Origin: Flavobacteria bacterium RIFCSPLOWO2_12_FULL_35_11
Lineage (GTDB): Bacteria > Bacteroidota > Bacteroidia > Flavobacteriales > Flavobacteriaceae
Direction of reading: 5' to 3'
NCBI GenBank assembly: GCA_001800975.1
Contig: MGWK01000007.1
Location: 1 to 64,000, forward strand
DNA: 64,000 nucleotides
Shown: positions 34,491-64,000 of the stretch, in pieces
Position numbering within the stretch: position 1 is the stretch's first letter
How the letters are laid out: each line of letters starts with the position of its first letter
Notes under the pieces: generated by a model
What the model was told of the DNA's origin: nothing
What the model saw: the letters and a program-made list of their open reading frames with translations, nothing else
Database searches by the model: none
Made by a program: the position numbers and the translations under genes

Positions 34491-35342
34491 CTAAGTGGCA
34501 AATTGTTTCCTTCTGTAATCAGAAGGCGTAACTCCTTTTATGGATTTAAACTTCCTGTTAAAATTGGCCAAATTATTAAATCCGGACTTATAAGAAATTT
34601 CGGTGATGTTTAAATCGTTGTTTTTGGTCAGCAATTTACACGCATTTCCTATTCTGATATCAATCAAAAAATTCACAAAAGTTTTGTTGGTTCGCTGTTT
34701 AAAATACCTGCAAAAGGCATTGGGCGTCATATTCGCAATGTCGGCAACATTGTCTAAGGTAACTTCTTTGTGAAAATTATTCATGGTGTATTGAAAAATA
34801 TCGCTCATCCGTTTCCCTTCATCACCATCATATTTTTTTAGGTTTATCAAAGACGACAATGTTTCTTTTTCGGCATCTGAAATTAAAGACAGAATTGATA
34901 AAAATGAGGTAAACTGTTTGTATTTTGAATAGTTATCAATTTTTGTCAGTAACAAGGAAAGTTCCGGTTTGTTGGAAAGTACCTCAAAACCTAAAACAGC
35001 ATCGTAAAAAAAGGCGTTGAAATGTTCAAATTCGGGCAAATTAAAAAAATGTTCTCCGTAGGAATTTTTTGAAAAAAACAAAGATATCATTACAGTTTCT
35101 TGCTCAAAGGCAGCATCTCTTTTAAAAATATGCGGCAAATTTTCACCGATTACAAAAATGTCATTTTTTTTAAATTCCCCTACACAATCGCCTATAATAT
35201 AAGTGCCTTCGCCTTCAACAAATATACTTATTTGAATTTCCTGATGTTGGTGCAGTTTTTCATAAAATGACTCGCCATCATATTTTTGAATGTATAAAGT
35301 TACATTCTCAGGTTTCGGAATTTTAAATGGCAATACCTTCAT
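34491..35342 (-). CDS. AraC family transcriptional regulator of the hydroxyproline operon (proposed)
   Basis: A 283-residue regulator. N-terminal cupin-type ligand domain (about 1-130; HQHQEIQISIFVEGEGTYII, then GDCVGEFKKNDIFVIG) and C-terminal double helix-turn-helix (about 180-283; VADIANMTPNAFCRYFKQRT and ITEISYKSGFNNLANFNRKF, then KGVTPSDYRR). It is divergent from the hydroxyproline operon across 273 bases, so local control of that operon is the best guess. The inducer is not known; hydroxyproline or a pathway intermediate is likely. Confidence 0.9.
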   Translation of the reverse strand: MKVLPFKIPKPENVTLYIQKYDGESFYEKLHQHQEIQISIFVEGEGTYIIGDCVGEFKKNDIFVIGENLPHIFKRDAAFEQETVMISLFFSKNSYGEHFFNLPEFEHFNAFFYDAVLGFEVLSNKPELSLLLTKIDNYSKYKQFTSFLSILSLISDAEKETLSSLINLKKYDGDEGKRMSDIFQYTMNNFHKEVTLDNVADIANMTPNAFCRYFKQRTNKTFVNFLIDIRIGNACKLLTKNNDLNITEISYKSGFNNLANFNRKFKSIKGVTPSDYRRKQFAT

Positions 35343-35615
35343 TTCTGCTAAATATACGTCGAAATTAATCTATTTTTTTGATTAAATGATAAATATAAGG
35401 TAAAATACTATTATGAATAGATAAAAAAAAAGCTAGTGCCATAGCTTAGAAAGTATAAATTTGGTTTTAAAGTTAATAGGTCAGAAGACCGAAGTTCATT
35501 AGTTTTTTGGATACTAGAATAATTCGGATGTCTGAAATGAATATTGGCAAGGAAAAACTTAGCGCTTAAAACTTAAAGCTTACAACTAAAAAAAACAAAC
35601 ATACAATTAAAAGTA

Positions 35616-36521
35616 ATGATTATGAGCATACAATGGAACGGCGTAATGCCAGCAGTTACAACAAAATTCACGGATGAAGATATCTTGGATTTGGTGAATT
35701 TTGAAAAAAATATCAACGCACAATTGGCAGCTGGCGTCAATGGAATTATCCTTGGCGGCACTTTGGGTGAAGCCAGCACACTTACTGCCGATGAAAAAAG
35801 AATCCTGATAAAAAAAACGGTAGAAATTGTAAAAGGCAAAGTTCCGGTGATTATCAATATTGCCGAACAATCCACAACTGGCGCTATTGAAGCGGTTCGC
35901 AAAGCTGAAGAATATGGGGCAAACGGATTGATGTTGTTGCCGCCGATGCGTTACAAAGCCGATTCCAGGGAAACGGTCACCTATTTTAAAAAAATAGCCA
36001 AAAGTACTTCGCTGCCAATTATGATTTACAACAATCCGGTCGATTATGGCATTGAAGTTACTTTGGATATGTTTTCAGCATTGATGGAATGCGAAAATAT
36101 TCAGGCAGTGAAAGAATCTACCCGTGATATTTCAAATGTGACGAGAATGAAAACGCGTTTTGGCGACCGTTTTAAAATTTTATGTGGCGTTGACACCTTG
36201 GCCTTAGAGAGTTTATTGATGGGCGCAGATGGTTGGGTTGCCGGTTTGGTTTGTGCTTTTCCTGATGAAACTGTTGCCATTTATAAATTGGCAAAAGCAG
36301 GAAAAACAAAAGAAGCCATCACCATTTATAGTTGGTTTTTACCTTTGTTGGAGTTGGATATAAACACTAAATTGGTGCAAAATATTAAATTGGCGGAAGT
36401 GGCTACAGGAATAGGAACGGAAAATGTCAGGGAACCACGTTTGCCATTGGTAGGCGAAGAAAGAATTCGAGTTTTGGCAATTATTGAAAAAGCGTTGAAA
36501 AATAGACCGAAAATCAAGTGA
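35616..36521 (+). CDS. 1-pyrroline-4-hydroxy-2-carboxylate deaminase (DapA family)
   Basis: A 301-residue class I aldolase-fold enzyme. The Schiff-base Lys166 (QAVKEST) and Tyr138 (PIMIYNNP) of the DHDPS family are present, as is GGTLGEASTLTADEK. Alone this would only say DapA-like, but the operon supplies the specific reaction: deamination of the cyclic imine to alpha-ketoglutarate semialdehyde. The ATG at 35616 is followed by another at 35622 (MSIQWNG), either of which may be used. It is the first gene of the operon. Confidence 0.85.
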   Translation: MIMSIQWNGVMPAVTTKFTDEDILDLVNFEKNINAQLAAGVNGIILGGTLGEASTLTADEKRILIKKTVEIVKGKVPVIINIAEQSTTGAIEAVRKAEEYGANGLMLLPPMRYKADSRETVTYFKKIAKSTSLPIMIYNNPVDYGIEVTLDMFSALMECENIQAVKESTRDISNVTRMKTRFGDRFKILCGVDTLALESLLMGADGWVAGLVCAFPDETVAIYKLAKAGKTKEAITIYSWFLPLLELDINTKLVQNIKLAEVATGIGTENVREPRLPLVGEERIRVLAIIEKALKNRPKIK

Positions 36522-36573
36522 TAATTTAAGGTAAAAAACACCAAAAAATCCAACATACTAAAATACAAAGCAA

Positions 36574-38157
36574 ATGATTACAGGAAAAAACCACATTGGA
36601 AATCTGCTGGCATCAACAGGGAAAGTAACATTTAAAACATTCAATCCGCAGGAAAACAAGGAGAACGATGTTGTTTTTTCTGAAGCTTCATCAGCAGAAA
36701 TTGAGATGGCAGTTGAGCTGGCATCAGAGGCTTTTAAGGTATTTCGAAATATTTCAGGAGTCAAAAAAAGTGAATTTTTAAACCAAATCGCCAATGAAAT
36801 TGAAGCGTTGGGCGATGAGCTGATAAAAACGTATTGCTTAGAATCCGGTTTGACGGAAGGCAGGGCAACTGGCGAAAGAGGAAGAACTATTTTTCAGTTG
36901 CGCACCTTTGCCAATTTGGTAAAAGAAGGATCTTGGGTGGAGGCAACTATTGATACTGCCGATCCAAACCGTCAACCTATTCCAAAAGTTGACATTCGCA
37001 AAATGTTAATTCCAATCGGCCCTGTAGTTGTTTTTGGCGCGAGTAACTTTCCGTTGGCCTATTCTACGGCAGGCGGAGACACGGCGGCAGCATTCGCTGC
37101 CGGTTGTCCGGTTATTGTAAAATCGCATCCAATGCACGCCGGAACAGGTGAGTTGGTATCTTCAGCAATCATAAATGCTGCCGAAAAAACCGGAATGCCA
37201 AATGGTGTATTTTCAAATTTAAACAGCAGCGGCATTGAAGTTGGCGTTACATTGGTGAAACATCCTCAAGTAAAAGCGGTAGGTTTTACGGGAAGCGTTG
37301 GCGGCGGAAGGGCTTTGTACAATATGGCTTCACAACGCGCGGAACCCATTCCTGTTTTTGCCGAAATGGGAAGCGTAAATCCGGTGATCATTTTACCGGA
37401 AGCCGCAAAAAATAAGGGAACTGAATGGGCAAAGACTTATGCTGGTTCCATCACGTTAAGTTCTGGACAATTTTGTACAAATCCCGGATTAATATTGGGA
37501 ATTAAAGGACCCGATTTAACCAATTTTATTCAAAAATTATCGAAAGAAATTGTCAAAATTGAACCTACTTGTATGTTGCATCCAAACATCATTGGCGCTT
37601 ATGAAACCAAAAAAGCGACCATGCAAAAACAAGTAGGTTTGCAAACTGCGTCAAGTTTTTCCGATGAAATCGCCGCCAATTATGGACGCCAGGCCATTAC
37701 AACTGTTGAAGGCGCCACTTTTTTACAAAACACAGCCTTGCATCAGGAAGTTTTCGGACCATTTTCTATGGTGGTTCAGTGCGAAAATGCACAGCAATTG
37801 GAAGAAATTATTGCCAATTTGGAAGGTCAGTTAACGGGAACTGTTTTAGCCGAAAATGAAGAATTGAAAAATTATAGTAAGGTAATAAATGCCCTTCAAA
37901 ACAGGGTTGGACGCATCATTTTTAATGGCGTTCCAACAGGTGTTGAGGTTTGTGCCGCAATGGTTCATGGCGGCCCTTATCCGGCATCAACCGACAGCCG
38001 ATTTACAGCGGTGGGAATCAATTCCATAAAACGTTGGGTGCGTCCGTTTAGTTTCCAAAGCTGGCCAAACGACTTATTGCCCGATGAATTGAAGAATGAA
38101 AATCCGCTGGGAATTTCACGAATCATTGATGGAAAACAAACTTCTGGTAAAATTTAA
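36574..38157 (+). CDS. Alpha-ketoglutarate semialdehyde dehydrogenase
   Basis: A 527-residue aldehyde dehydrogenase, with catalytic Cys301 in SSGQFCTNPGL, general base Glu264 in FAEMGSVNP, and the NAD(P)-binding FTGSVGGGRALY. The length and the motif FGASNFPLAYSTAGGDTAAA match the NADP-type ketoglutarate semialdehyde dehydrogenases seen with hydroxyproline genes. It oxidises the deaminase product to 2-oxoglutarate. It lies 52 bases after the deaminase and 11 before the DUF885 peptidase. Confidence 0.9.
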   Translation: MITGKNHIGNLLASTGKVTFKTFNPQENKENDVVFSEASSAEIEMAVELASEAFKVFRNISGVKKSEFLNQIANEIEALGDELIKTYCLESGLTEGRATGERGRTIFQLRTFANLVKEGSWVEATIDTADPNRQPIPKVDIRKMLIPIGPVVVFGASNFPLAYSTAGGDTAAAFAAGCPVIVKSHPMHAGTGELVSSAIINAAEKTGMPNGVFSNLNSSGIEVGVTLVKHPQVKAVGFTGSVGGGRALYNMASQRAEPIPVFAEMGSVNPVIILPEAAKNKGTEWAKTYAGSITLSSGQFCTNPGLILGIKGPDLTNFIQKLSKEIVKIEPTCMLHPNIIGAYETKKATMQKQVGLQTASSFSDEIAANYGRQAITTVEGATFLQNTALHQEVFGPFSMVVQCENAQQLEEIIANLEGQLTGTVLAENEELKNYSKVINALQNRVGRIIFNGVPTGVEVCAAMVHGGPYPASTDSRFTAVGINSIKRWVRPFSFQSWPNDLLPDELKNENPLGISRIIDGKQTSGKI

Positions 38158-38168
38158 TTTTTTTTCAA

Positions 38169-39890
38169 ATGAATTATTTAAAATCAATAATTATTTTATT
38201 TTTTATCGTTTTAGCAAGCTGTACTCCGAAAAAAAATGCATCAGAGGAGTTAACTAAAGTGATTGCAAATTATGAAAATCACGAAGGATTTGATAAAAAG
38301 GAATATCCTTTAGGTTTATTTACAAAAGAGTATTATAAAAATGAAGCGGAATATGCGCAAAAAACCATCGATACTTTATCAAAAATCGCGATAGATAATT
38401 TGTCGGAATCTGAAATTATTTCTTTGGAATTGCTAAAATTCACTTTGCAGGAAAATATCGATTTTTATGAGTTTGAAGCTTATTTAAATCCGCTCTTGTC
38501 CGATTCAGGCTTTCATACAAGTTTGCCTTATGAGGTTCGTGCTTTTTCTACACATCAACAATTTGTCGACTATTTAAACAAATTAAATGCCTTCCCAACT
38601 TTTGTTGAACAGCATATTGTTTTAATGCGTGAAGGTTTGGAAAAAGGAATCTCTCAGCCTAAAATTATTTTCAATCATTTTGAAGAGACATACAACAGTC
38701 AGATTGTTGCTAATTTTGAAGACAGTTTTTATTATTCGCCTTTTAAACAATTGCCTGCAAACATTTCAGTTTCCCAAAAAGATTCTTTATTAACGGCTGC
38801 AAAAACGGTAATTGTGGAGAAAGTAATTCCTCAGTTTACAATTATTAAAGCCTTTTTTGAAGATGAATATTTTGTAAAAACAAGGGCTGATGGTGGCGTT
38901 TCAAACCAAAAAAACGGAACAGCTCATTATCAAAACAGGGTAAATTATTATACCACTTCAAAAATTTCTTCAGAAGAAGTGCATCAAATTGGATTGCGGG
39001 AAGTTGCACGAATTAAAGCTGAAATGCAAAAAATTATTGAGGAAGTAAATTTTAAAGGGTCATTTGATGAATTTTTAACATTTTTAAGAACTGACGAACA
39101 GTTTTATGCAAAAACAGGTGATGATTTGTTAAAAGAAGCAAGAAACATTGCAAAAAAAATTGATGCTCAATTGCCCAAATATTTCATCACTTTGCCTCGA
39201 AAACCTTATGGTGTTGCGCCTGTTCCGGAGGTAATTGCACCAAAATATACTGGAGGAAGATACAATCCGTCGGCAAATAACAGCACAGAACCCGGATATT
39301 ATTGGGTAAATACTTACAATTTAAAAAGCAGGCCACTTTATGTTTTACCGGCGTTAACCTTGCATGAAGCTGTTCCCGGTCATCATTTGCAAATTAGTTT
39401 AAGCAATGAGCTGGGTAAAAATTTCCCTAAATTTAGACGCGAATTATATTTATCTGCTTATGGGGAAGGTTGGGGTCTATATGCTGAATTTTTAGGAAAT
39501 GATATGGGGATTTATGAAACGCCATATGAAAATTTCGGAAAATATACCTATGAAATGTGGCGTGCTTGCCGTTTGGTGGTTGATACCGGAATTCACAGTA
39601 AAAACTGGACAAGAGAACAGGCGGTTAATTATTTAAAATCGAATACAGCATTGTCTGTTCACGAAGTAAATACAGAAATAGACCGATATATTTCCTGGCC
39701 AGGACAGGCATTGTCCTATAAAATTGGGGAACTAAAAATTCGTGAACTTAGGAAAAAGGCAGAAAAAGAATTAGGACCTAAATTTGATATTCGGGAATTT
39801 CATGAAATTATTTTAGCAGAGGGAACGGTGACGCTTTCCATTTTAGAAAAAAGAATTCTTAACTATATTCAAAAAATAAAAAATGGGTAG
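38169..39890 (+). CDS. DUF885 family metallopeptidase-like lipoprotein
   Basis: A 573-residue exported protein. The signal peptide ends in a lipobox, VLASC (Cys18). The DUF885 zinc site is LHEAVPGHHLQIS (His399, HExxxGHH) with a downstream Glu in YGEGWGLYAE. The family is a probable gluzincin carboxypeptidase/peptidase group; substrates are not proven. Its place between dehydrogenase and epimerase genes implies it supplies Hyp or Pro from peptides. The last 8 bases overlap the epimerase start (ATGGGTAG), indicating coupled translation. Confidence 0.87.
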   Translation: MNYLKSIIILFFIVLASCTPKKNASEELTKVIANYENHEGFDKKEYPLGLFTKEYYKNEAEYAQKTIDTLSKIAIDNLSESEIISLELLKFTLQENIDFYEFEAYLNPLLSDSGFHTSLPYEVRAFSTHQQFVDYLNKLNAFPTFVEQHIVLMREGLEKGISQPKIIFNHFEETYNSQIVANFEDSFYYSPFKQLPANISVSQKDSLLTAAKTVIVEKVIPQFTIIKAFFEDEYFVKTRADGGVSNQKNGTAHYQNRVNYYTTSKISSEEVHQIGLREVARIKAEMQKIIEEVNFKGSFDEFLTFLRTDEQFYAKTGDDLLKEARNIAKKIDAQLPKYFITLPRKPYGVAPVPEVIAPKYTGGRYNPSANNSTEPGYYWVNTYNLKSRPLYVLPALTLHEAVPGHHLQISLSNELGKNFPKFRRELYLSAYGEGWGLYAEFLGNDMGIYETPYENFGKYTYEMWRACRLVVDTGIHSKNWTREQAVNYLKSNTALSVHEVNTEIDRYISWPGQALSYKIGELKIRELRKKAEKELGPKFDIREFHEIILAEGTVTLSILEKRILNYIQKIKNG

Positions 39891-40893
39891 AAAAACATTT
39901 TTTTGCATTGATGCCCACACTTGCGGAAACCCGGTTCGAGTAGTTGCCGGTGGAGGTCCAAATTTAATAGGAGCCGATATGAGCGAAAAACGTCAGCATT
40001 TTTTGAAAGAATTCGACTGGATTCGTAAAGGATTGATGTTTGAGCCACGCGGACACGATATGATGAGCGGAAGCATTTTGTTTCCGCCGCATCATGAGGA
40101 AAATGATTTTTCGATTTTATTTATTGAAACTTCCGGCTGCTTGCCTATGTGCGGCCACGGCACCATCGGCACGGTAACCATTGCCATTGAAGAAGGTTTG
40201 ATAACACCTAAAATTCCTGGAAAAATAAGGATGGAAGCGCCAGCCGGATTGGTACAAATTGAATACCGAAAAACCGGTAAAAAAGTGGATTGGGTGAAAT
40301 TGATCAATGTGAAATCGTATTTGGCTGCGGAAGGATTAACAGTTGATTGTCCGGAGTTGGGTGAACTTACTTTTGATGTTGCTTATGGCGGAAATTACTA
40401 CGCTATTGTTGATCCGCAAGAAAACTTTAGCGGATTACATAATTTTACGGCAAGCAAATTAATACAATATTCACAAGTGGTGAGAACGCGCATCAATGAA
40501 AAATATCCCAATTTATTTGTGCATCCCGAAAATGAAACTATCAGAGATGTGAGCCATATGTTGTGGACCGGAAATCCGATAGACCCAACTTCTTCAGGTA
40601 GAAATGCTGTTTTTTATGGAGACAAAGCCATAGATCGTTCACCTTGCGGTACAGGAACATCGGCGCGTATGGCGCAATTGTATGCAAAAGGAAAATTAAA
40701 ATTGGGAGAAGAATTTATCCACGAAAGTTATATTGGCTCTAAATTTATCGGTAAAATTGTCGAAGAAACCACTTTAAACGGAATAAAAGCTATTGTTCCA
40801 AGCATTCAGGGCTGGGCAAAAGTTTATGGATACAACACTATCATTATCGATGATGAAGATGATCCGTATGCACACGGATTTCAAGTGTTATAA
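39883..40893 (+). CDS. 4-hydroxyproline 2-epimerase (proline racemase family)
   Basis: A 336-residue proton-shuffling epimerase. The two catalytic thiols are Cys90 (CLPMCGHGTIGT) and Cys255 (DRSPCGTGTSAR). It converts trans-4-hydroxy-L-proline to cis-4-hydroxy-D-proline. A Cys at the second position excludes the trans-3-hydroxyproline dehydratase branch, which has Thr there. Proline racemase is the alternative, but the operon fits 4-Hyp. N-terminal IDAHTCGNPVRVVAGG is typical. Confidence 0.92.
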   Translation: MGRKTFFCIDAHTCGNPVRVVAGGGPNLIGADMSEKRQHFLKEFDWIRKGLMFEPRGHDMMSGSILFPPHHEENDFSILFIETSGCLPMCGHGTIGTVTIAIEEGLITPKIPGKIRMEAPAGLVQIEYRKTGKKVDWVKLINVKSYLAAEGLTVDCPELGELTFDVAYGGNYYAIVDPQENFSGLHNFTASKLIQYSQVVRTRINEKYPNLFVHPENETIRDVSHMLWTGNPIDPTSSGRNAVFYGDKAIDRSPCGTGTSARMAQLYAKGKLKLGEEFIHESYIGSKFIGKIVEETTLNGIKAIVPSIQGWAKVYGYNTIIIDDEDDPYAHGFQVL

Positions 40894-40961
40894 TATAAAA
40901 ATAAGAGCTTATAACAAAATTTATCATCTTAATTAAGGTTGAAATTTAATATAAAACAATT

Positions 40962-43229
40962 ATGAAAACATTTTATGGTTTATCTATTATCACATTATTG
41001 TTGATAATACCAATGCAAATGCACTCTCAAAAATTATCTCAAGAGGATTACAAAAGGGCTGTAAGTTTTATGTATGAAAATTATAATAACAAAACGGCTT
41101 TTAATCTTGACACAAAAGTTAATTGGTTTAAAGATAATTCCGGAATTTGGTTTGTTGACTATAGTAAAGAAGGAGAAACATATAAAACAGTTTCATTTAA
41201 AAATAATAAAGTTGAAGTACTATTTAATCATATAAAATTGGCTAATGAATTAAATAAGCTTCTTGAAGAAAAAGTAAGGCCAAACAATCTTTCTTTAAAC
41301 AATATTGAAAGAACTAAAAGCGGAAATCTTATTATTTATGTAAAAGGTAAAAGGTATATTTATAATACAAAAAAGAATATGCTTCAAATTTCAGAAGAAG
41401 AGAAAAAAGAAGAAGTCAAACCTTTTGAAAGTAAATCCCCAGATGGTAAATGGATAGCCTATTCAAAAGATTATAATTTGTTTATTAAATCTGCTGAAAC
41501 TGAAGAAGAGCATCAATTAAGTTTTGATGGAAAAAAGAATTATGAATATGCGAGTTTTTATGGCTGGTATGATAAAATGGAGGGAGAAAATGGAGAACGT
41601 CCAAAAAACTTTTCTGTAGATTGGTCTAAAGATTCAAAATGGATTTCAACAAACGTTGTTGATTTACGAAATGCTGAAAAAATGTACCTTTTAGATTGGA
41701 GCATAGATTCATTATATAAGCCTAAATTATTGTCCTATTACCGTGGTTCGCCAGGAGATACAACAATGGTGCATACAAAACCTGTTTTTTTTAGTGTTGA
41801 CACTAGAAAAGAAATAAAAACAAGTCTTCCAAAAAATACTCATATAAATAGTGTTTCAGTACAATGGAACCAAGATCCGGGAGTAATTATATCAAACTAT
41901 GCAGAAAGAGGATTTCAAAAGCAATATGTAAAAAGAATTGATTTAAACACCAATACTGAACAGACTTTAATCACTGAAATTAGTAGTGCAAACATTGATA
42001 ATTTTAATTATAGGCTATTAGAAGAGATTCAAAAAATTGCTTTTCTTTCTGAGAGAAGCGGATGGAGACAATTGTATATATTAGATTTAAAAACAAACAA
42101 AACATTCCCTCTTACAAATGGAAATTATTACATACATGATATTAAATATATCAATGAAAAAACGGGAGATATTTACTTTTTAGCTTCAGGGAAAGAAATT
42201 AATAACAATCCTTATCACCAACAGTTGTATAAGACAGATTTGAGCGGGATAGTTACATTATTGTCTCCTGAAAACACACATCACAGTGTGTCTTTTTCCG
42301 AAGATGGAAAATATTTTGCAGATAATTATTCAACAATTGAAATTCCAACAAAAACAGTATTGCGAGAAACTTCTACAGGAAATATTATATCAAAATTAAC
42401 TTATGCCAATGTTGATGAAGCAGTTTCAAAAGGATGGAAAACTCCAGAGGTTTTTAATCTTACGGCTAAAGATGGAAAGACAACAATTTATGGTGCTATT
42501 TGGAAGCCAACTAATTTTGATGCCTCAAAAAAATATCCAATAATTGATCACACATATACGGGACCTCATACACAAGTATTCCCAAAATCATTTGATAGAG
42601 GTTTTATGAATCAATCATTAGCCGAATTAGGTTTTATAGTAATGATGGTTGATGGCCTGGGTACTTTTGGCCGTTCAAAGGAATTCCATAATTATTCTTA
42701 TAAAAATATGGGTAATAATTTAGAAGACCATGTTTTGGCAATAAAATATTTAGGAGAAAAATATAGTTGGATTGATATTGATAAGGTTGGAATTTTTGGT
42801 CATTCAGCTGGAGGTTACGATACAGGAAGAGCTATGTTAGCCTTTTCAGATTTTTATAAAGTTGGAGTTGCGAGTTCTGCAGACCATGATTTCAGAATGG
42901 AAAAGGCATGGTGGCCAGAAATGTATCAAGGTTGGCCTGTTGACTCAACATATCAAAATGTTTCTAACATAACAAATGCTAAAAATTTAAAAGGGAAATT
43001 ATTATTAGTTCATGGGGGAATTGATGATAATGTTAACCCATCTGCAACGTTTAAATTAGCGGAAGCCCTAATAAATGCAGATAAGGAGTTTGATTTATTA
43101 ATACTTCCAAGTCAGAGACATGGCTATCAAGGAAAACATCAAAGTTATTTCACAAAAAAAAGATGGAATTATTTTGTTGAATATTTAGGAGGCAATACGC
43201 CTATATGGAATTTTAATTGGACTTATTAA
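40962..43229 (+). CDS. S9 family (DPP IV-type) prolyl peptidase
   Basis: A 755-residue exported serine peptidase. The signal peptide is residues 1-22 (ending MHSQ). A beta-propeller DPP IV N-domain spans about 60-490 (ASFYGWYDKMEGE, FLSERSGWRQLYILDL), then an alpha/beta hydrolase domain with nucleophile Ser615 in GHSAGGY, and Asp and His in GGIDDNVNP and SQRHGYQ. DPP IV-type enzymes release X-Pro or X-Hyp dipeptides. The gene shows lower GC than its neighbours (more AT-rich codons), hinting at a different history. The stop overlaps the next start by one base (TAATG). Confidence 0.93.
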   Translation: MKTFYGLSIITLLLIIPMQMHSQKLSQEDYKRAVSFMYENYNNKTAFNLDTKVNWFKDNSGIWFVDYSKEGETYKTVSFKNNKVEVLFNHIKLANELNKLLEEKVRPNNLSLNNIERTKSGNLIIYVKGKRYIYNTKKNMLQISEEEKKEEVKPFESKSPDGKWIAYSKDYNLFIKSAETEEEHQLSFDGKKNYEYASFYGWYDKMEGENGERPKNFSVDWSKDSKWISTNVVDLRNAEKMYLLDWSIDSLYKPKLLSYYRGSPGDTTMVHTKPVFFSVDTRKEIKTSLPKNTHINSVSVQWNQDPGVIISNYAERGFQKQYVKRIDLNTNTEQTLITEISSANIDNFNYRLLEEIQKIAFLSERSGWRQLYILDLKTNKTFPLTNGNYYIHDIKYINEKTGDIYFLASGKEINNNPYHQQLYKTDLSGIVTLLSPENTHHSVSFSEDGKYFADNYSTIEIPTKTVLRETSTGNIISKLTYANVDEAVSKGWKTPEVFNLTAKDGKTTIYGAIWKPTNFDASKKYPIIDHTYTGPHTQVFPKSFDRGFMNQSLAELGFIVMMVDGLGTFGRSKEFHNYSYKNMGNNLEDHVLAIKYLGEKYSWIDIDKVGIFGHSAGGYDTGRAMLAFSDFYKVGVASSADHDFRMEKAWWPEMYQGWPVDSTYQNVSNITNAKNLKGKLLLVHGGIDDNVNPSATFKLAEALINADKEFDLLILPSQRHGYQGKHQSYFTKKRWNYFVEYLGGNTPIWNFNWTY

Positions 43230-44470
43230 TGAGTAAAGAAGTTCTAATTATTGGAGGTGGAATCATCGGATTGTGTTCTGCTTATTATTTGGCAAAAGAA
43301 GGCGCTACAGCAACTATAATTGACAAATCTGACATGGCGGATGGCTGTTCTTATGGAAATGCGGGGATGATTGTTCCCAGCCACATTATTCCAATGGCGC
43401 AACCGGGTGTTATTCATCAGGGCATAAAATGGATGTTTAATGCCAAAAGTCCGTTTTACATAAAACCTGCTTTAAGTTTGGATTTGCTTTCTTGGCTGAT
43501 TCAATTTTACAAAAATTCTAATCAAGCGCATGTGGATAAATCCATGGTGCCTTTGCGGAATCTTTCTTTTTTCAGCAAAGAATTGTATCGGGAATTTGCG
43601 CAATCAGCCAACGAATTTGGGTATCAGGAAAAAGGACTTTTGATGCTTTATAATACTGATAAAGTGGGTGAGGAGGAAATAAAAATTGGAAAAGTTGCTG
43701 AAGAATTGGGTATAGAAGTCGATTTTTTAAATCAACAGGAAGTTGCAACATTAGAAAAAGGACTTAAAGTTAATGCTTTGGGCGCCGTGCATTACAAATC
43801 TGATGCGCATTTGTCTCCAAACCATTTTATTGCTTTTTTAAAAGCTGAATTAAATCAAATGGGCGTGAAGATGATTTCTAATTGTTCTTTGAACGATTTT
43901 AAAGTTTCTGAAGGAAGAATTAACGAAATAATCACCAATCAGGGAAATTATAAAGCGGAGGAATTTGTGATTGCCGCAGGTTCCTGGAGCGTTGAAATTG
44001 CCAAAAAATTAGGGGTGAAATTGCATATTTTGCCAGGCAAAGGCTATAGCTTTAATGTAGAAAACCTTTTGGTAAAACCAACGATCCCCACTATTTTATG
44101 CGAAGGAAAAGTGGCTGTAACTCCTATGGGAGAAACTGTGAGGTTTGGCGGAACTTTGGAAATCACCAAAAATAACGACACTAAAATCAATATTAAAAGA
44201 CTGCAAGGAATTGTTGAAAAAGTGAATCAGTTTTATCCGGATATCAAAGTTAGCCTTCCTGAAAAAGAAAAAGTATGGCATGGTTTTAGGCCTTGCACAC
44301 CAACTGGATTGCCAATTATTGAGAAATCTAAAAAAATTAAAAATCTAACCATCGCTACAGGCCATGCAATGATGGGCTTGAGCTTGGCGCCGGCTTCCGG
44401 AAAACTGGTAAGTGAATTGCTCATGGGTAAAAAAACATCTGTAGATATTACCGAATTTAGGAGTTGTTAA
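43229..44470 (+). CDS. FAD-dependent D-hydroxyproline oxidase/dehydrogenase (DadA-like)
   Basis: A 413-residue DAO-family flavoenzyme. The FAD motif is IIGGGIIGLCSAYYLAKEGA near the N-terminus, with a second dinucleotide contact in EFVIAAGSWSVEIAKKLG and the C-terminal ATGHAMMGLSLAPASGKLV. It likely oxidises cis-4-hydroxy-D-proline to 1-pyrroline-4-hydroxy-2-carboxylate, given its neighbours. The electron acceptor is unknown. The start at 43229 shares one base with the preceding TAA; an in-frame ATG at 43217 would add four residues. Confidence 0.88.
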   Translation: MSKEVLIIGGGIIGLCSAYYLAKEGATATIIDKSDMADGCSYGNAGMIVPSHIIPMAQPGVIHQGIKWMFNAKSPFYIKPALSLDLLSWLIQFYKNSNQAHVDKSMVPLRNLSFFSKELYREFAQSANEFGYQEKGLLMLYNTDKVGEEEIKIGKVAEELGIEVDFLNQQEVATLEKGLKVNALGAVHYKSDAHLSPNHFIAFLKAELNQMGVKMISNCSLNDFKVSEGRINEIITNQGNYKAEEFVIAAGSWSVEIAKKLGVKLHILPGKGYSFNVENLLVKPTIPTILCEGKVAVTPMGETVRFGGTLEITKNNDTKINIKRLQGIVEKVNQFYPDIKVSLPEKEKVWHGFRPCTPTGLPIIEKSKKIKNLTIATGHAMMGLSLAPASGKLVSELLMGKKTSVDITEFRSC

Positions 44471-61296: not shown

Positions 61297-61329
61297 AAAA
61301 AAGAGTTGGCTATTGTCAACTCTTTTTTT
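61297..61329 (+). terminator. Terminator of the galK-symporter operon
   Basis: AAAAAAGAGTTG (61297-61308) pairs with CAACTCTTTTTT (61317-61328) around an 8-base loop, with a T run. It separates the galactose genes from hypD. Confidence 0.9.
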
Positions 61330-61372
61330 GTATATTTAAGATGATTTAATCTTCCATACAGATGCTTCTTAA

Positions 61373-61433
61373 AAAGAACATATCAAACTTAACAAAAACA
61401 TACAGAAAGCTGTTTGAATGTTTGATGTTCTTT
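61373..61433. promoter_or_regulatory. Long hairpin in the hypD leader
   Basis: AAAGAACA-TA-TCAAAC (61373-61388) pairs with GTTTGA-TGTTCTTT (61420-61433), 14 base pairs with a 2-base bulge. An inner stem AAACA/TGTTT (61396-61400 with 61411-61415) lies in the loop. It is 94 bases upstream of the hypD start and could be regulatory RNA structure or an operator. Confidence 0.45.
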
Positions 61434-61527
61434 GAGCTGTCCTTTTAATTCACTTTTTAAAATTAGTTCAACTTATTGTATTATTATATTCAGTTTAAAG
61501 CTGAAATTTAATTCATATTCTTAAATT

Positions 61528-63981
61528 ATGGAAACAAATCAAAAAGTATTAAAACCAGAAAGACCAGCATCAGCACAAGGTAATTTTTATCAACCAATAA
61601 CCAATGCTATTGGACCAGGAATGAATGAGCGCATTCAAAAACTTCGAAAAATAAGTTTTGAAACAGAGCCTTCATTATCTATTGAAAGAGCCCTAATTCA
61701 AACACAATTTTATAAAGAAAACTTCGGAAAATATTCAACTCCAGTTTTAAGGGCGTTAAATTTTTTAGAAACCTGCAAACAAAAAACAATCTATTTGGGT
61801 GAAGGTGAATTAATTGTTGGAGAACGTGGGCCAAAACCAAAATGCGTCCCAACTTTCCCGGAATTAACTTGCCATAGTGTTGAAGATTTTAATGTGTTAA
61901 ACACGCGTGAAATGCAGCGTTATACCATTTCTCAACAGGATATTGATATTTACGAAAAAGAAGTAATTCCATATTGGAGCGGAAAAACAATGCGAGAACG
62001 AATTTTTAGTCATGTACCAAGTGAATGGTCTAATTTGTATGAAGCAGGTTTGTTTACTGAGTTTATGGAACAACGTGCCCCAGGACATACAGCGTTGGAT
62101 GGAAAGATTTATGAAAAAGGAATGTTGGATTTTAAACAAGATATTCAAGAAAGGTTAAATAAACTCGATTTTTTAAACGATCCTGAAGCAACCGATAAAA
62201 AAGAACAGTTAGATGGTATGGCAATTTCTTGTGATGCTGCTATTATTTTTGCAGAACGACATGCAGATTTTGCAGAGGAATTGGCTTCAAAAGAAAATGA
62301 TATCCAACGAAAAAAAGAGTTATTAAAAATTGCAGAAGTTTGTCGCTGGGTGCCTGCAAATGCTCCAAGAAATTTTCATGAAGCTATTCAAATGTATTGG
62401 TTTGTTCATTTAGGAACCATTACTGAATTAAATGGTTGGGATGCTATGAATCCTGGTCATTTTGATCAACATTTAACACCTTTTTACGAAAAGGAATTAT
62501 TAGAAGGAACCTTAAATAAAGAAGAAGCAAAGGAATTATTAAGCTGTTTTTGGATTAAGGTAAACAATCATCCAGCCCCTCCAAAAGTTGGAATTACAGC
62601 CAAAGAAAGTGGAACGTATAATGATTTTACAAATATTAACATTGGTGGCGTAAAAAAAGATGGCTCTAATGGTGTAAGTGAGGTTTCGTACATAATGTTA
62701 GAGATTGTAGAGGAATTGCACGTACTTCAACCTGGAAATTCGGTGCACATCAGTTCCAAAACACCAGATCGTTTTTTAAAGGAAGCATGTAAAGTAATTC
62801 GCCAAGGGCACGGCTATCCTTCTATTTTTAATCCAGATATTTATATTCAGGAAATGTTACGACAAGGAAAAACATTGGAAGATGCTAGAGAAGGTGGTTG
62901 CAGTGGTTGTATTGAAGTTGGTGCTTTTGGGAAAGAAGCCTACATTTTAACAGGCTATTTAAATGTTCCAAAAATTATTGAAATTACATTGAATAATGGA
63001 ATTAATCCAGTTACTGGTAAACAAGTAAGTGTTAAAACTGGAGATCCAAGAGATTTTAAAACGTATGAAGAATTGTATGATGCATTCCTAAAACAGCTGA
63101 ATTACATAGTAAACCAGAAGGTTTTAGTAAGTAATTATATTGATAGAATGTTTGCAAAATACAGTCCAGCAACATTTTTATCAGTAGTAATTGAAGATTG
63201 TATCACAAAAGGAAAAGATTACTATAATGGCGGACCTAGATACAATACAAATTACATCCAATGTACAGGTTTGGGAACGGTGACAGATAGTTTGTCGGTT
63301 TTAAAGAAACACGTTTTTGAAGACAAAACTTTTTCAATGAACACGCTTTTAAATGCAGTTGCCAATAATTTTGTAGGTGAGGAAATTTTAAGGCAAACTA
63401 TTATCAATAATACGCCATTCTATGGAAATGATGATGATTATGCCGATGACATTGCGTTGCAAGTGTATAATAATTTGTTTGATGCCATTGATGGTAAACC
63501 AAATATAAAAGGCGAAACTTTTCATTTAAATATGTTATCTACAACTTGCCACGTATATTTTGGAAAAGTAATGGGAGCAACACCTAATGGACGTTTGGCG
63601 CAAAAATCAATTTCTGATGGAACTTCACCATCACATGGTTGTGATGTTAATGGGCCTTCAGCAGTTATTAAATCATTGTCTAAAATTGATCAGGTAAAAT
63701 CGGGTGGAACTTTGTTAAATCAACGTTTTTTACCAAGTTTATTAAAACGAGATGAAGATATTATGAAGTTAGGACAATTGGTTAAAAGTTATTTTGCCTT
63801 GGGAGGACATCATATTCAATTTAATATTGTAGATACTGCTACTTTATATGCTGCACAGGAAAATCCAGAAGATTATAAAGATTTATTGGTGCGTATGGCT
63901 GGTTATAGTGATTATTTCAACGATATGAATATCGATTTACAGCAAGAAGTTATTGAAAGAACAGAAAATGAATCGTTTTAA
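61528..63981 (+). CDS. hypD: Trans-4-hydroxy-L-proline dehydratase, glycyl radical enzyme
   Basis: An 817-residue glycyl radical enzyme of the pyruvate formate-lyase superfamily, HypD type. It removes water from trans-4-hydroxy-L-proline to give 1-pyrroline-5-carboxylate. Catalytic Cys461 is in GGCSGCIEVG; the glycyl radical site is Gly792 in VRMAGYSDYF. Residues that I recall as the active-site set of C. difficile HypD are all kept at a constant offset of 27: Phe179, His187, Asp305, Ser361, Asp366, Phe367, Cys461, Glu463 and Tyr477. The N-terminal extension of about 27 residues (METNQKVLKPERPASAQGNF) is not in the clostridial enzyme. The stop abuts the next ATG, which starts a probable activase. 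The enzyme requires strict anaerobiosis once activated. Confidence 0.92.
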   Translation: METNQKVLKPERPASAQGNFYQPITNAIGPGMNERIQKLRKISFETEPSLSIERALIQTQFYKENFGKYSTPVLRALNFLETCKQKTIYLGEGELIVGERGPKPKCVPTFPELTCHSVEDFNVLNTREMQRYTISQQDIDIYEKEVIPYWSGKTMRERIFSHVPSEWSNLYEAGLFTEFMEQRAPGHTALDGKIYEKGMLDFKQDIQERLNKLDFLNDPEATDKKEQLDGMAISCDAAIIFAERHADFAEELASKENDIQRKKELLKIAEVCRWVPANAPRNFHEAIQMYWFVHLGTITELNGWDAMNPGHFDQHLTPFYEKELLEGTLNKEEAKELLSCFWIKVNNHPAPPKVGITAKESGTYNDFTNINIGGVKKDGSNGVSEVSYIMLEIVEELHVLQPGNSVHISSKTPDRFLKEACKVIRQGHGYPSIFNPDIYIQEMLRQGKTLEDAREGGCSGCIEVGAFGKEAYILTGYLNVPKIIEITLNNGINPVTGKQVSVKTGDPRDFKTYEELYDAFLKQLNYIVNQKVLVSNYIDRMFAKYSPATFLSVVIEDCITKGKDYYNGGPRYNTNYIQCTGLGTVTDSLSVLKKHVFEDKTFSMNTLLNAVANNFVGEEILRQTIINNTPFYGNDDDYADDIALQVYNNLFDAIDGKPNIKGETFHLNMLSTTCHVYFGKVMGATPNGRLAQKSISDGTSPSHGCDVNGPSAVIKSLSKIDQVKSGGTLLNQRFLPSLLKRDEDIMKLGQLVKSYFALGGHHIQFNIVDTATLYAAQENPEDYKDLLVRMAGYSDYFNDMNIDLQQEVIERTENESF

Positions 63982-64000
63982 ATGAGTACAGGTTTAATTT
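63982..64000 (+). CDS. Start of probable glycyl-radical-enzyme activase (partial)
   Basis: ATG at 63982 directly follows the hypD stop; six codons are visible (MSTGLI) before the window ends. The position fits HypE, the radical SAM activase needed to form the glycyl radical of HypD. The identity rests on context and cannot be proven from six codons. Confidence 0.5.

Follow-up and report, generated by a model that had tools for sequence, protein, structure and literature searches.

What does an oxygen-sensitive glycyl radical enzyme (GRE) for hydroxyproline, an amino acid abundant in collagen, do in a flavobacterium, and what controls how much of it is made? This question is raised by one end of the window, the stretch of 64,000 nucleotides (nt) that was analysed (positions 1 to 64,000, forward strand, of contig MGWK01000007.1 from Flavobacteria bacterium RIFCSPLOWO2_12_FULL_35_11). 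Here hypD (61528..63981, + strand), predicted to encode trans-4-hydroxy-L-proline dehydratase (HypD), is followed by the start of a predicted activase gene (63982..64000, + strand) and preceded by a small open reading frame (ORF) of 28 amino acids (aa; 61362..61448, + strand). A first-pass annotation, made from the sequence alone, had recognized the enzyme and did not mention the small ORF. This ORF is the new part. Comparison of many hypD loci suggests that it is most likely a leader peptide with a putative regulatory role, and we call it the conserved hypD-linked leader peptide.

HypD and its activase

The ORF at 61528-63981 encodes a protein of 817 aa with an N-terminal extension of about 27 aa. 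It scored 1212.8 bits with the HypD equivalog model of NCBIfam (cut-off 1100), and the next family scored 600. Its best solved relative is HypD from Clostridioides difficile (6VXC, 1006 bits; next structure 503). The two proteins align over 787 residues without a gap, 407 of which are identical (52%), at a constant offset of +27. F152, H160, D278, S334 and D339 of 6VXC correspond to F179, H187, D305, S361 and D366, and F340, C434, E436, Y450 and G765 correspond to F367, C461, E463, Y477 and G792. The first-pass annotation had claimed HypD on the basis of Cys461, Gly792 and the named site residues at this offset, and the alignment bears out all ten. R156, W277, K326 and T645 of C. difficile HypD are also kept, so that 14 of 14 catalytic and substrate-site residues agree when compared with the list in the available text of PMC7077986. 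The features that define membership, namely Cys and Glu of the CXE motif, the Gly radical site, Asp278, Asp339, Ser334, Phe340, Thr645 and Tyr450, are all present. In an alignment of 119 rows, each of the 14 positions holds the identical residue in every lettered HypD row (at most three gaps per position). Seven non-HypD GREs share 3 to 11 of these residues, and CutC and three others among them share 3 to 5. A fold search with an AlphaFold model also ranked 6VXC first, at 52% identity. The model (mean pLDDT 75, 25 rows, several active-site loops below 50) served for the fold search only and gives nothing reliable on the N-terminal extension.

A GRE tree, which the first-pass annotation had proposed as a check, placed the protein inside HypD. 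Among its 96 rows, 89 HypD sequences split from seven other GREs, three CutC included (SH-aLRT 98; a quick method, with few and partly long outgroups). From 120 candidate rows, six were left out by a length limit, 15 by a motif filter (L033, L094, L097-L101, L104-L109, L111, L118) and three as duplicates of other rows (L049, L066, L079). Window HypD lies within a clade of 72 rows (SH-aLRT 99), and a separate clade of 17 rows (SH-aLRT 81) holds C. difficile and 16 Bacteroidota sequences. The two clades are separated by 28 nearly fixed differences, and Cys is found at 458 in 94 of 100 rows of the window HypD clade. HplG (7vua, 379 bits) and the N-methyl-hydroxyproline dehydratases (8iof, 462 bits; 8id1, 436 bits) were rejected as identities against 1006 bits for HypD. 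Sulfopropanediol dehydratase (584.5 bits) fell far under the HypD score, and diol dehydratase, CutC and PFL were rejected by scores, residues and tree. It is thus well supported by sequence comparison that the ORF encodes a trans-4-hydroxy-L-proline dehydratase, a new member of a known family whose activity is predicted. It shares the fold and all 14 residues with C. difficile HypD as described in the available text of the structural study (6VXC/6VXE; eLife 2020, PMC7077986), and differs from it in its 52% identity, its clade, its N-terminal extension and Cys458. We also observed a GRE at L176:1453-3846 (+ strand; deltaproteobacterial bin Ww513) that has 11 of the 14 residues and lacks the Trp277-Asp278 pair. 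It scored 776.6 bits with the HypD model, below the cut-off, and is about equally close to HypD and glycerol dehydratase structures; by its sequence it is possibly an undescribed GRE subfamily.

C. difficile HypD requires a radical SAM activase, and window HypD is likewise paired with one. The activase gene begins at the base that follows the stop codon of hypD and ends at contig position 64890 (302 aa; radical SAM and Fer4 domains). The product has the sequence CNLQCKWC (CxxxCxxC) and two ferredoxin-type Cys groups. Its top model is NF043069 (HypD activase; 338 bits, below the cut-off of 425), and it is over the cut-off of TIGR02494, which covers GRE activases in general. The suggestion in the first-pass annotation that an activase comes next therefore agrees with the gene found. 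An activase was present in 72 of 80 named hypD loci, mostly within a few hundred bases of hypD; read from offsets, 63 lie downstream, eight upstream on the same strand and one upstream on the other strand. Seven of the eight loci without activase end less than 1 kb after hypD. At one Cys position of the first ferredoxin group, the window activase (L002:2983-3891) has Ala, which is found there in 9 of 71 aligned activases.

The small ORF upstream of hypD

Aligning the DNA upstream of hypD in Flavobacteriaceae turned up a conserved block that reads as an ORF. In the window it has 28 codons (61362-61448) and encodes MLLKKNISNLTKTYRKLFECLMFFELSF, which contains KTYRKLFECLMFF; the core consensus is K-x-Y-R-x-L-F-x-C-L-M-F-Y. 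A profile built from 16 family copies was searched against 500 nt upstream of 117 hypD genes. This gave 53 forward matches at E<0.1, with none on the reverse strand below E 0.25. The match at L082 was dropped as its core is missing, which left 52 matches, the 16 training copies included. Outside the C. difficile-type clade, hypD is immediately preceded by the small ORF at 52 of 97 loci; inside the clade, at 0 of 17 (C. difficile's own locus is not among the 17). Three loci with less than 110 nt upstream were set aside, and L042, which has no fixed place in the tree, was counted outside. Some genomes were counted twice via different tools, and there are 41 distinct peptide cores. All 15 genome-search loci of the family have the small ORF, as do L046-L051 and L113. 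The small ORF precedes hypD-type genes in at least two phyla: the matches outside Bacteroidota are three Desulfobacterota (L067, L071, L096) and an Anaerolineae-titled bin (L056).

The element is tied to hypD. A profile of the core, run against 66,572 fragments from 200 overlapping loci (1.53 Mb with overlaps), gave 92 matches at E<5. Of these, 73 immediately precede hypD, and no match at any other place is better than E 0.17. A strict DNA pattern gave eight matches in seven of 397 family genomes, every one before a hypD. In genome G084, two hypD genes (L020 and L199, on contigs C192 and C259) each have their own copy; this genome is 82% complete with 6% contamination, and one of its hypD genes may be foreign. 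A plasmid hypD of Parabacteroides distasonis, outside all profiles, has a divergent copy, MLHKGYRMLFNCLMFYL, at a position where the plasmid gene table, which is incomplete, lists no gene. A 25-aa query found 0 matches among plasmids; it missed this copy, so a search with so short a query can overlook copies. Viral contigs contained 0 exact pattern matches. Pfam and NCBIfam gave no match to the small ORF, the best PHROGs match had E 0.24, and for the leader nothing in Rfam exceeded its gathering score. Among the papers listed in literature searches, which mostly did not cover subscription papers, none describes the small ORF by its title or abstract.

Selection acts on the encoded peptide. Among 18 distinct family copies, the ratio of non-synonymous to synonymous changes (pN/pS) in the core is 0.076 for the reading frame itself and 0.92 and 5.85 for the two alternative frames; for the N-terminal part it is 0.52. 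In 26 motif-selected cores, variability at the three codon positions is 0.147, 0.064 and 0.349. Copies were picked via a six-residue motif, which lowers pN there; none of the 15 family genome-search loci is without a copy. Within hypD operons, the small ORF is a conserved element that codes for a peptide, and it matches none of the families searched. Measured from the nearest ATG, copies can be as short as 15-17 aa. Conservation is found at or close to the C-terminus, whereas the N-terminal part is variable. The gap between small ORF and hypD ranges from 7 to 256 nt.

Where does the transcript begin? A terminator-like hairpin of 14 pairs with a T tail (61297..61328, + strand) probably closes the upstream galactokinase/sodium-symporter unit; a terminator consensus scan found this one, against a mean of 0.0 in shuffles. 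It is followed by TATATTTA (61331..61338, + strand), 31 nt before the small ORF, which is near the sequence TAnnTTTG given for the flavobacterial sigma-A -7 box in the available text of PMC9723704. Of 37 distinct loci, 30 carry the exact box no more than 80 nt ahead of the small ORF, where 3.7 would be expected; in 25 of those 30 it sits 23-46 nt from the start codon. Between small ORF and hypD, 1 of 32 loci carries it (2.4 expected). These counts leave out Desulfobacterota, Chloroflexota, copies without ATG, L082, duplicates and L003 (short upstream). The hairpin and the box together would place the start before the small ORF. Most likely, the transcript would start about 20 nt before the small ORF and run through hypD and the activase gene (hypDE).

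A proposed leader peptide and rival explanations

We think it somewhat probable, though far from sure, that hypDE forms one transcript for the breakdown of hydroxyproline without oxygen and that a cis-acting leader peptide controls it. By analogy with the family, the activase would place a radical on Gly792, from which Cys461 would become a thiyl radical. This radical would take hydrogen from C5 of trans-4-hydroxy-L-proline and water would leave. The resulting pyrroline-5-carboxylate (P5C) would go to proline by ProC or to glutamate by P5C dehydrogenase. The C-terminal residues of the small ORF would act inside the ribosome or as the ribosome finishes, and the nascent peptide would thereby set the amount of hypDE made. 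Short copies, conservation at the C-terminus and a variable N-terminus suit a nascent peptide that acts inside the ribosome. If one guesses from the enzyme regulated, the likeliest signal would be hydroxyproline or one of its products. A more specific version, in which the peptide of the small ORF arrests the ribosome, senses hydroxyproline (or P5C or proline) and switches on hypDE, is tentative, and we would sooner doubt it than rely on it. If true, it would be the first nascent peptide that senses hydroxyproline and the first leader-peptide control of a GRE, in at least two phyla.

Amino-acid-sensing leader peptides include TnaC (tryptophan) and SpeFL (ornithine). They are short ORFs at the mRNA 5' end of a catabolic gene, the position proposed for the small ORF, and like it they are conserved toward the C-terminus, but they belong to other phyla and precede other enzymes, and we know of no sequence resemblance between them and the small ORF. 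Strong clues to leader-peptide attenuation lie upstream of amino-acid biosynthesis operons in Flavobacterium psychrophilum, according to the available text of PMC9723704.

Several observations weigh against a leader peptide that controls hypDE in this way. The small ORF was not found in 45 of 97 loci, so HypD does not need it, and the Desulfobacterota matches are weaker (E 3e-6 to 0.006). Most copies end 0-4 residues past the core, but L091 ends 6 and L064 ends 11 residues past it, and in L044, L077 and L079 the last core residues are missing; arrest at the stop therefore cannot be universal. TATATTTA of the window is one base off TAnnTTTG, and the window is among the seven loci without the exact box. 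One Cys of the first ferredoxin group, present in 59 of 71 aligned activases, is missing from the window activase. No shared RNA structure was found in the leaders (consensus -3.97 kcal/mol, compensatory changes at 2 of 16 pairs), and folding of the 44 gaps between small ORF and hypD has a mean z of -0.86, with stems that differ in place and sequence. Evidence on a downstream switch of the leader is mixed. A weak inverted repeat, TTCAGTT-taa-AGCTGAA (61489..61505, + strand), lies between small ORF and hypD; its stem has p = 0.23 in the window and 0.00 in L007, and similar repeats are found in several Lutibacter loci.

A serious rival is a free microprotein, encoded by the small ORF and acting in trans; it might, for instance, be a small partner of HypD or of the activase, or protect either of them. 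The strong amino-acid conservation, the Cys in the core and the fact that the small ORF is always transcribed in hypD's direction would suit this, and some GREs, such as benzylsuccinate synthase and 4-hydroxyphenylacetate decarboxylase, have small extra subunits. However, copies of only 15-17 aa exist, the gap to hypD is widely variable, no copy was found away from hypD in the fragments or the 397 family genomes, and nearly half of the loci outside the C. difficile-type clade manage without it. A microprotein is therefore a possibility that we take seriously and do not expect. Much less room is left for the view that the conserved stretch is an RNA structure or a DNA operator and the open frame incidental. 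The window leader does have a better fold than most shuffled versions (z -2.28; 4 of 200 equal it), the KNI codons of Lutibacter are complementary to those of LMFF, giving a stem with a few compensatory changes, and 10 of the 44 gaps hold a stem matched by at most 2 of 60 shuffles. Yet low pN/pS is seen in a single frame only, third codon positions are the most variable, and Rfam offers no family at gathering score. A common leader RNA fold was rejected on the weak consensus and on single-sequence folds outside the family, which by eye have no common stem. An RNA or operator explanation is thus very improbable.

Two further rivals concern the enzyme, and we consider both highly unlikely. The substrate might be another hydroxyproline-like compound, either D-hydroxyproline as for HplG or N-methyl-hydroxyproline. 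Just 52% identity to the characterised HypD, the 28 clade differences, Cys458 near the Cys loop and a hydroxyproline epimerase encoded in the same window can be cited for this, but all 14 HypD residues are kept, the HplG and N-methyl-hydroxyproline dehydratase structures score far lower, and the fold search ranks HypD first. Moreover, Clostridium scindens, whose HypD is 55% identical to that of C. difficile, consumed most of the hydroxyproline offered, although the authors allow another route (available text of PMC9044972). Alternatively, hypDE might be a silent passenger in an aerobe. The genome has genes for oxidases, one of cbb3 type and one CtaD-like with a score below its cut-off, and hypD is patchy in the genus. 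HypD may also be the sole GRE of the genome, because it is the only PFL-like enzyme found and NrdD gave no match in the source genome. Against a silent passenger, the frames are intact, the active site is complete and the leader is conserved. The genome encodes B12-type ribonucleotide reductases (RNRs), which need no oxygen, and isolates of Lutibacter atrimaris are described as facultative anaerobes in the available text of PMC11129491. The B12-type RNRs and the oxidases together fit facultative life.

Hydroxyproline routes in the host and its relatives

The source genome is Lutibacter-like, because four of the five nearest named relatives carry a Lutibacter title. The first-pass annotation had called HypD unexpected in a Flavobacteriaceae genome with aerobic traits, and this stands for the family, where HypD is over the cut-off in 6 of 349 genomes and 5 of 237 genera (window genome included), but not for the genus of the window, where it is over the cut-off in 11 of 38 genomes and fragmentary in three more. 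HypD is thus rare in Flavobacteriaceae yet common in this genus, and the host is unusual, not unique. The earlier view that HypD belongs mainly to gut Firmicutes proved too narrow, as it is over the cut-off in 24 of 395 genomes of a phylum sample, and close relatives among the best 80 named loci bear titles from Desulfobacterota, Verrucomicrobia, Kiritimatiellia and other groups. Many of these relatives are bins from metagenomes and may be mislabelled; L066 bears the title Ignavibacteria and is identical to L043, placed by genome search in the window's own phylum.

In C. difficile, proC adjoins hypD (available text of PMC9044972), but this is not so at the window locus. The first-pass annotation had expected proC after the activase; it sits on another contig, and an ORF on the opposite strand, named aldo/keto reductase-like from its sequence, lies there instead. 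P5C dehydrogenase is also encoded elsewhere in the genome. The first-pass annotation had proposed that the enzyme serves proline production; with genes for both ProC and P5C dehydrogenase in the genome, proline and glutamate are each a candidate end product. Five of the 80 named loci have a P5C dehydrogenase gene at most about 3 kb from hypD (one copy tested, over its cut-off), which points to glutamate as product. A Xaa-Pro-aminopeptidase-like gene recurs near hypD in eight (tested copy below the model cut-off), and a second peptidase-like cluster, read as similar, in three (no NCBIfam match at 1e-25). These recurring neighbours of hypD fit breakdown of hydroxyproline peptides to glutamate. 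Four gut or rumen Bacteroidales loci (L098, L108, L104, L118) have no small ORF and carry the Xaa-Pro-aminopeptidase-like gene just upstream of hypD. In all four a short protein (cluster 7) recurs, whose tested copy has no NCBIfam match at 1e-25, and L098 and L108 also carry P5C dehydrogenase near hypD.

Besides hypDE, the window holds a cluster for an oxidative route. It consists of an AraC-type regulator (34491..35342, - strand; PF12833 over cut-off) and, on the + strand, a candidate deaminase (35616..36521; PF00701, best solved relatives dihydrodipicolinate synthases (DHDPS), specific role suggested by context), an aldehyde dehydrogenase (36574..38157; PF00171), 4-hydroxyproline epimerase (39883..40893; NF010578, 589.5 bits, cut-off 376) and an FAD-dependent D-amino acid dehydrogenase (43217..44470; PF01266). 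The aldehyde dehydrogenase is probably an alpha-ketoglutarate semialdehyde (KGSA) dehydrogenase; its best solved relatives are 1eyy and 3v4c, and it is below the NCBIfam cut-offs for that enzyme. The FAD enzyme is probably a D-hydroxyproline dehydrogenase, with the NCBIfam model for D-amino acid dehydrogenase scoring best, below its cut-off. An oxidative pathway of epimerase, D-hydroxyproline dehydrogenase, deaminase and KGSA dehydrogenase is described for marine Colwellia in the available text of PMC7883544, and the cluster at 34491-44470 has the epimerase and a candidate for every other step. This pathway uses an oxidoreductase and no glycyl radical, and stands next to hypDE as a separate, second route. 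Both oxidative and radical routes thus appear to be encoded in the window. Under anoxic conditions hypDE would be used, and under oxic ones the epimerase/oxidase cluster, which lies at a distance of 17-27 kb.

At least one hydroxyproline route is found in 27 of 38 genomes of the genus, and both in four, one of which has a fragmentary hypD. Mutual exclusion of HypD and epimerase was rejected, as 4 of 38 genomes have both and the association is not significant (Fisher p 0.18). Epimerase and NrdD are seldom together (1 of 38 genomes, Fisher p 0.0015, kinship not corrected). A hydroxyproline epimerase remnant with several stop codons at L145 (G010:C1:1322196-1322694) suggests that one species lost the oxidative route. 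We also observed a second, shorter B12-type RNR of 574 aa on contig C7:132450-134108 (L182, L188); of the 38 genomes of the genus, four have matches of comparable strength (679-694 bits).

HypD is among the most abundant GREs of the healthy human gut (available text of PMC7077986). Hydroxyproline raised hypD expression in two clostridia, and not in C. difficile or C. scindens, according to the available text of PMC9044972. The putative leader peptide that precedes hypD in Bacteroidota of the sea and the gut, as well as in some Desulfobacterota, is a concrete, testable candidate for a switch, and the genome studied here allows oxic and anoxic hydroxyproline routes to be compared within one organism.

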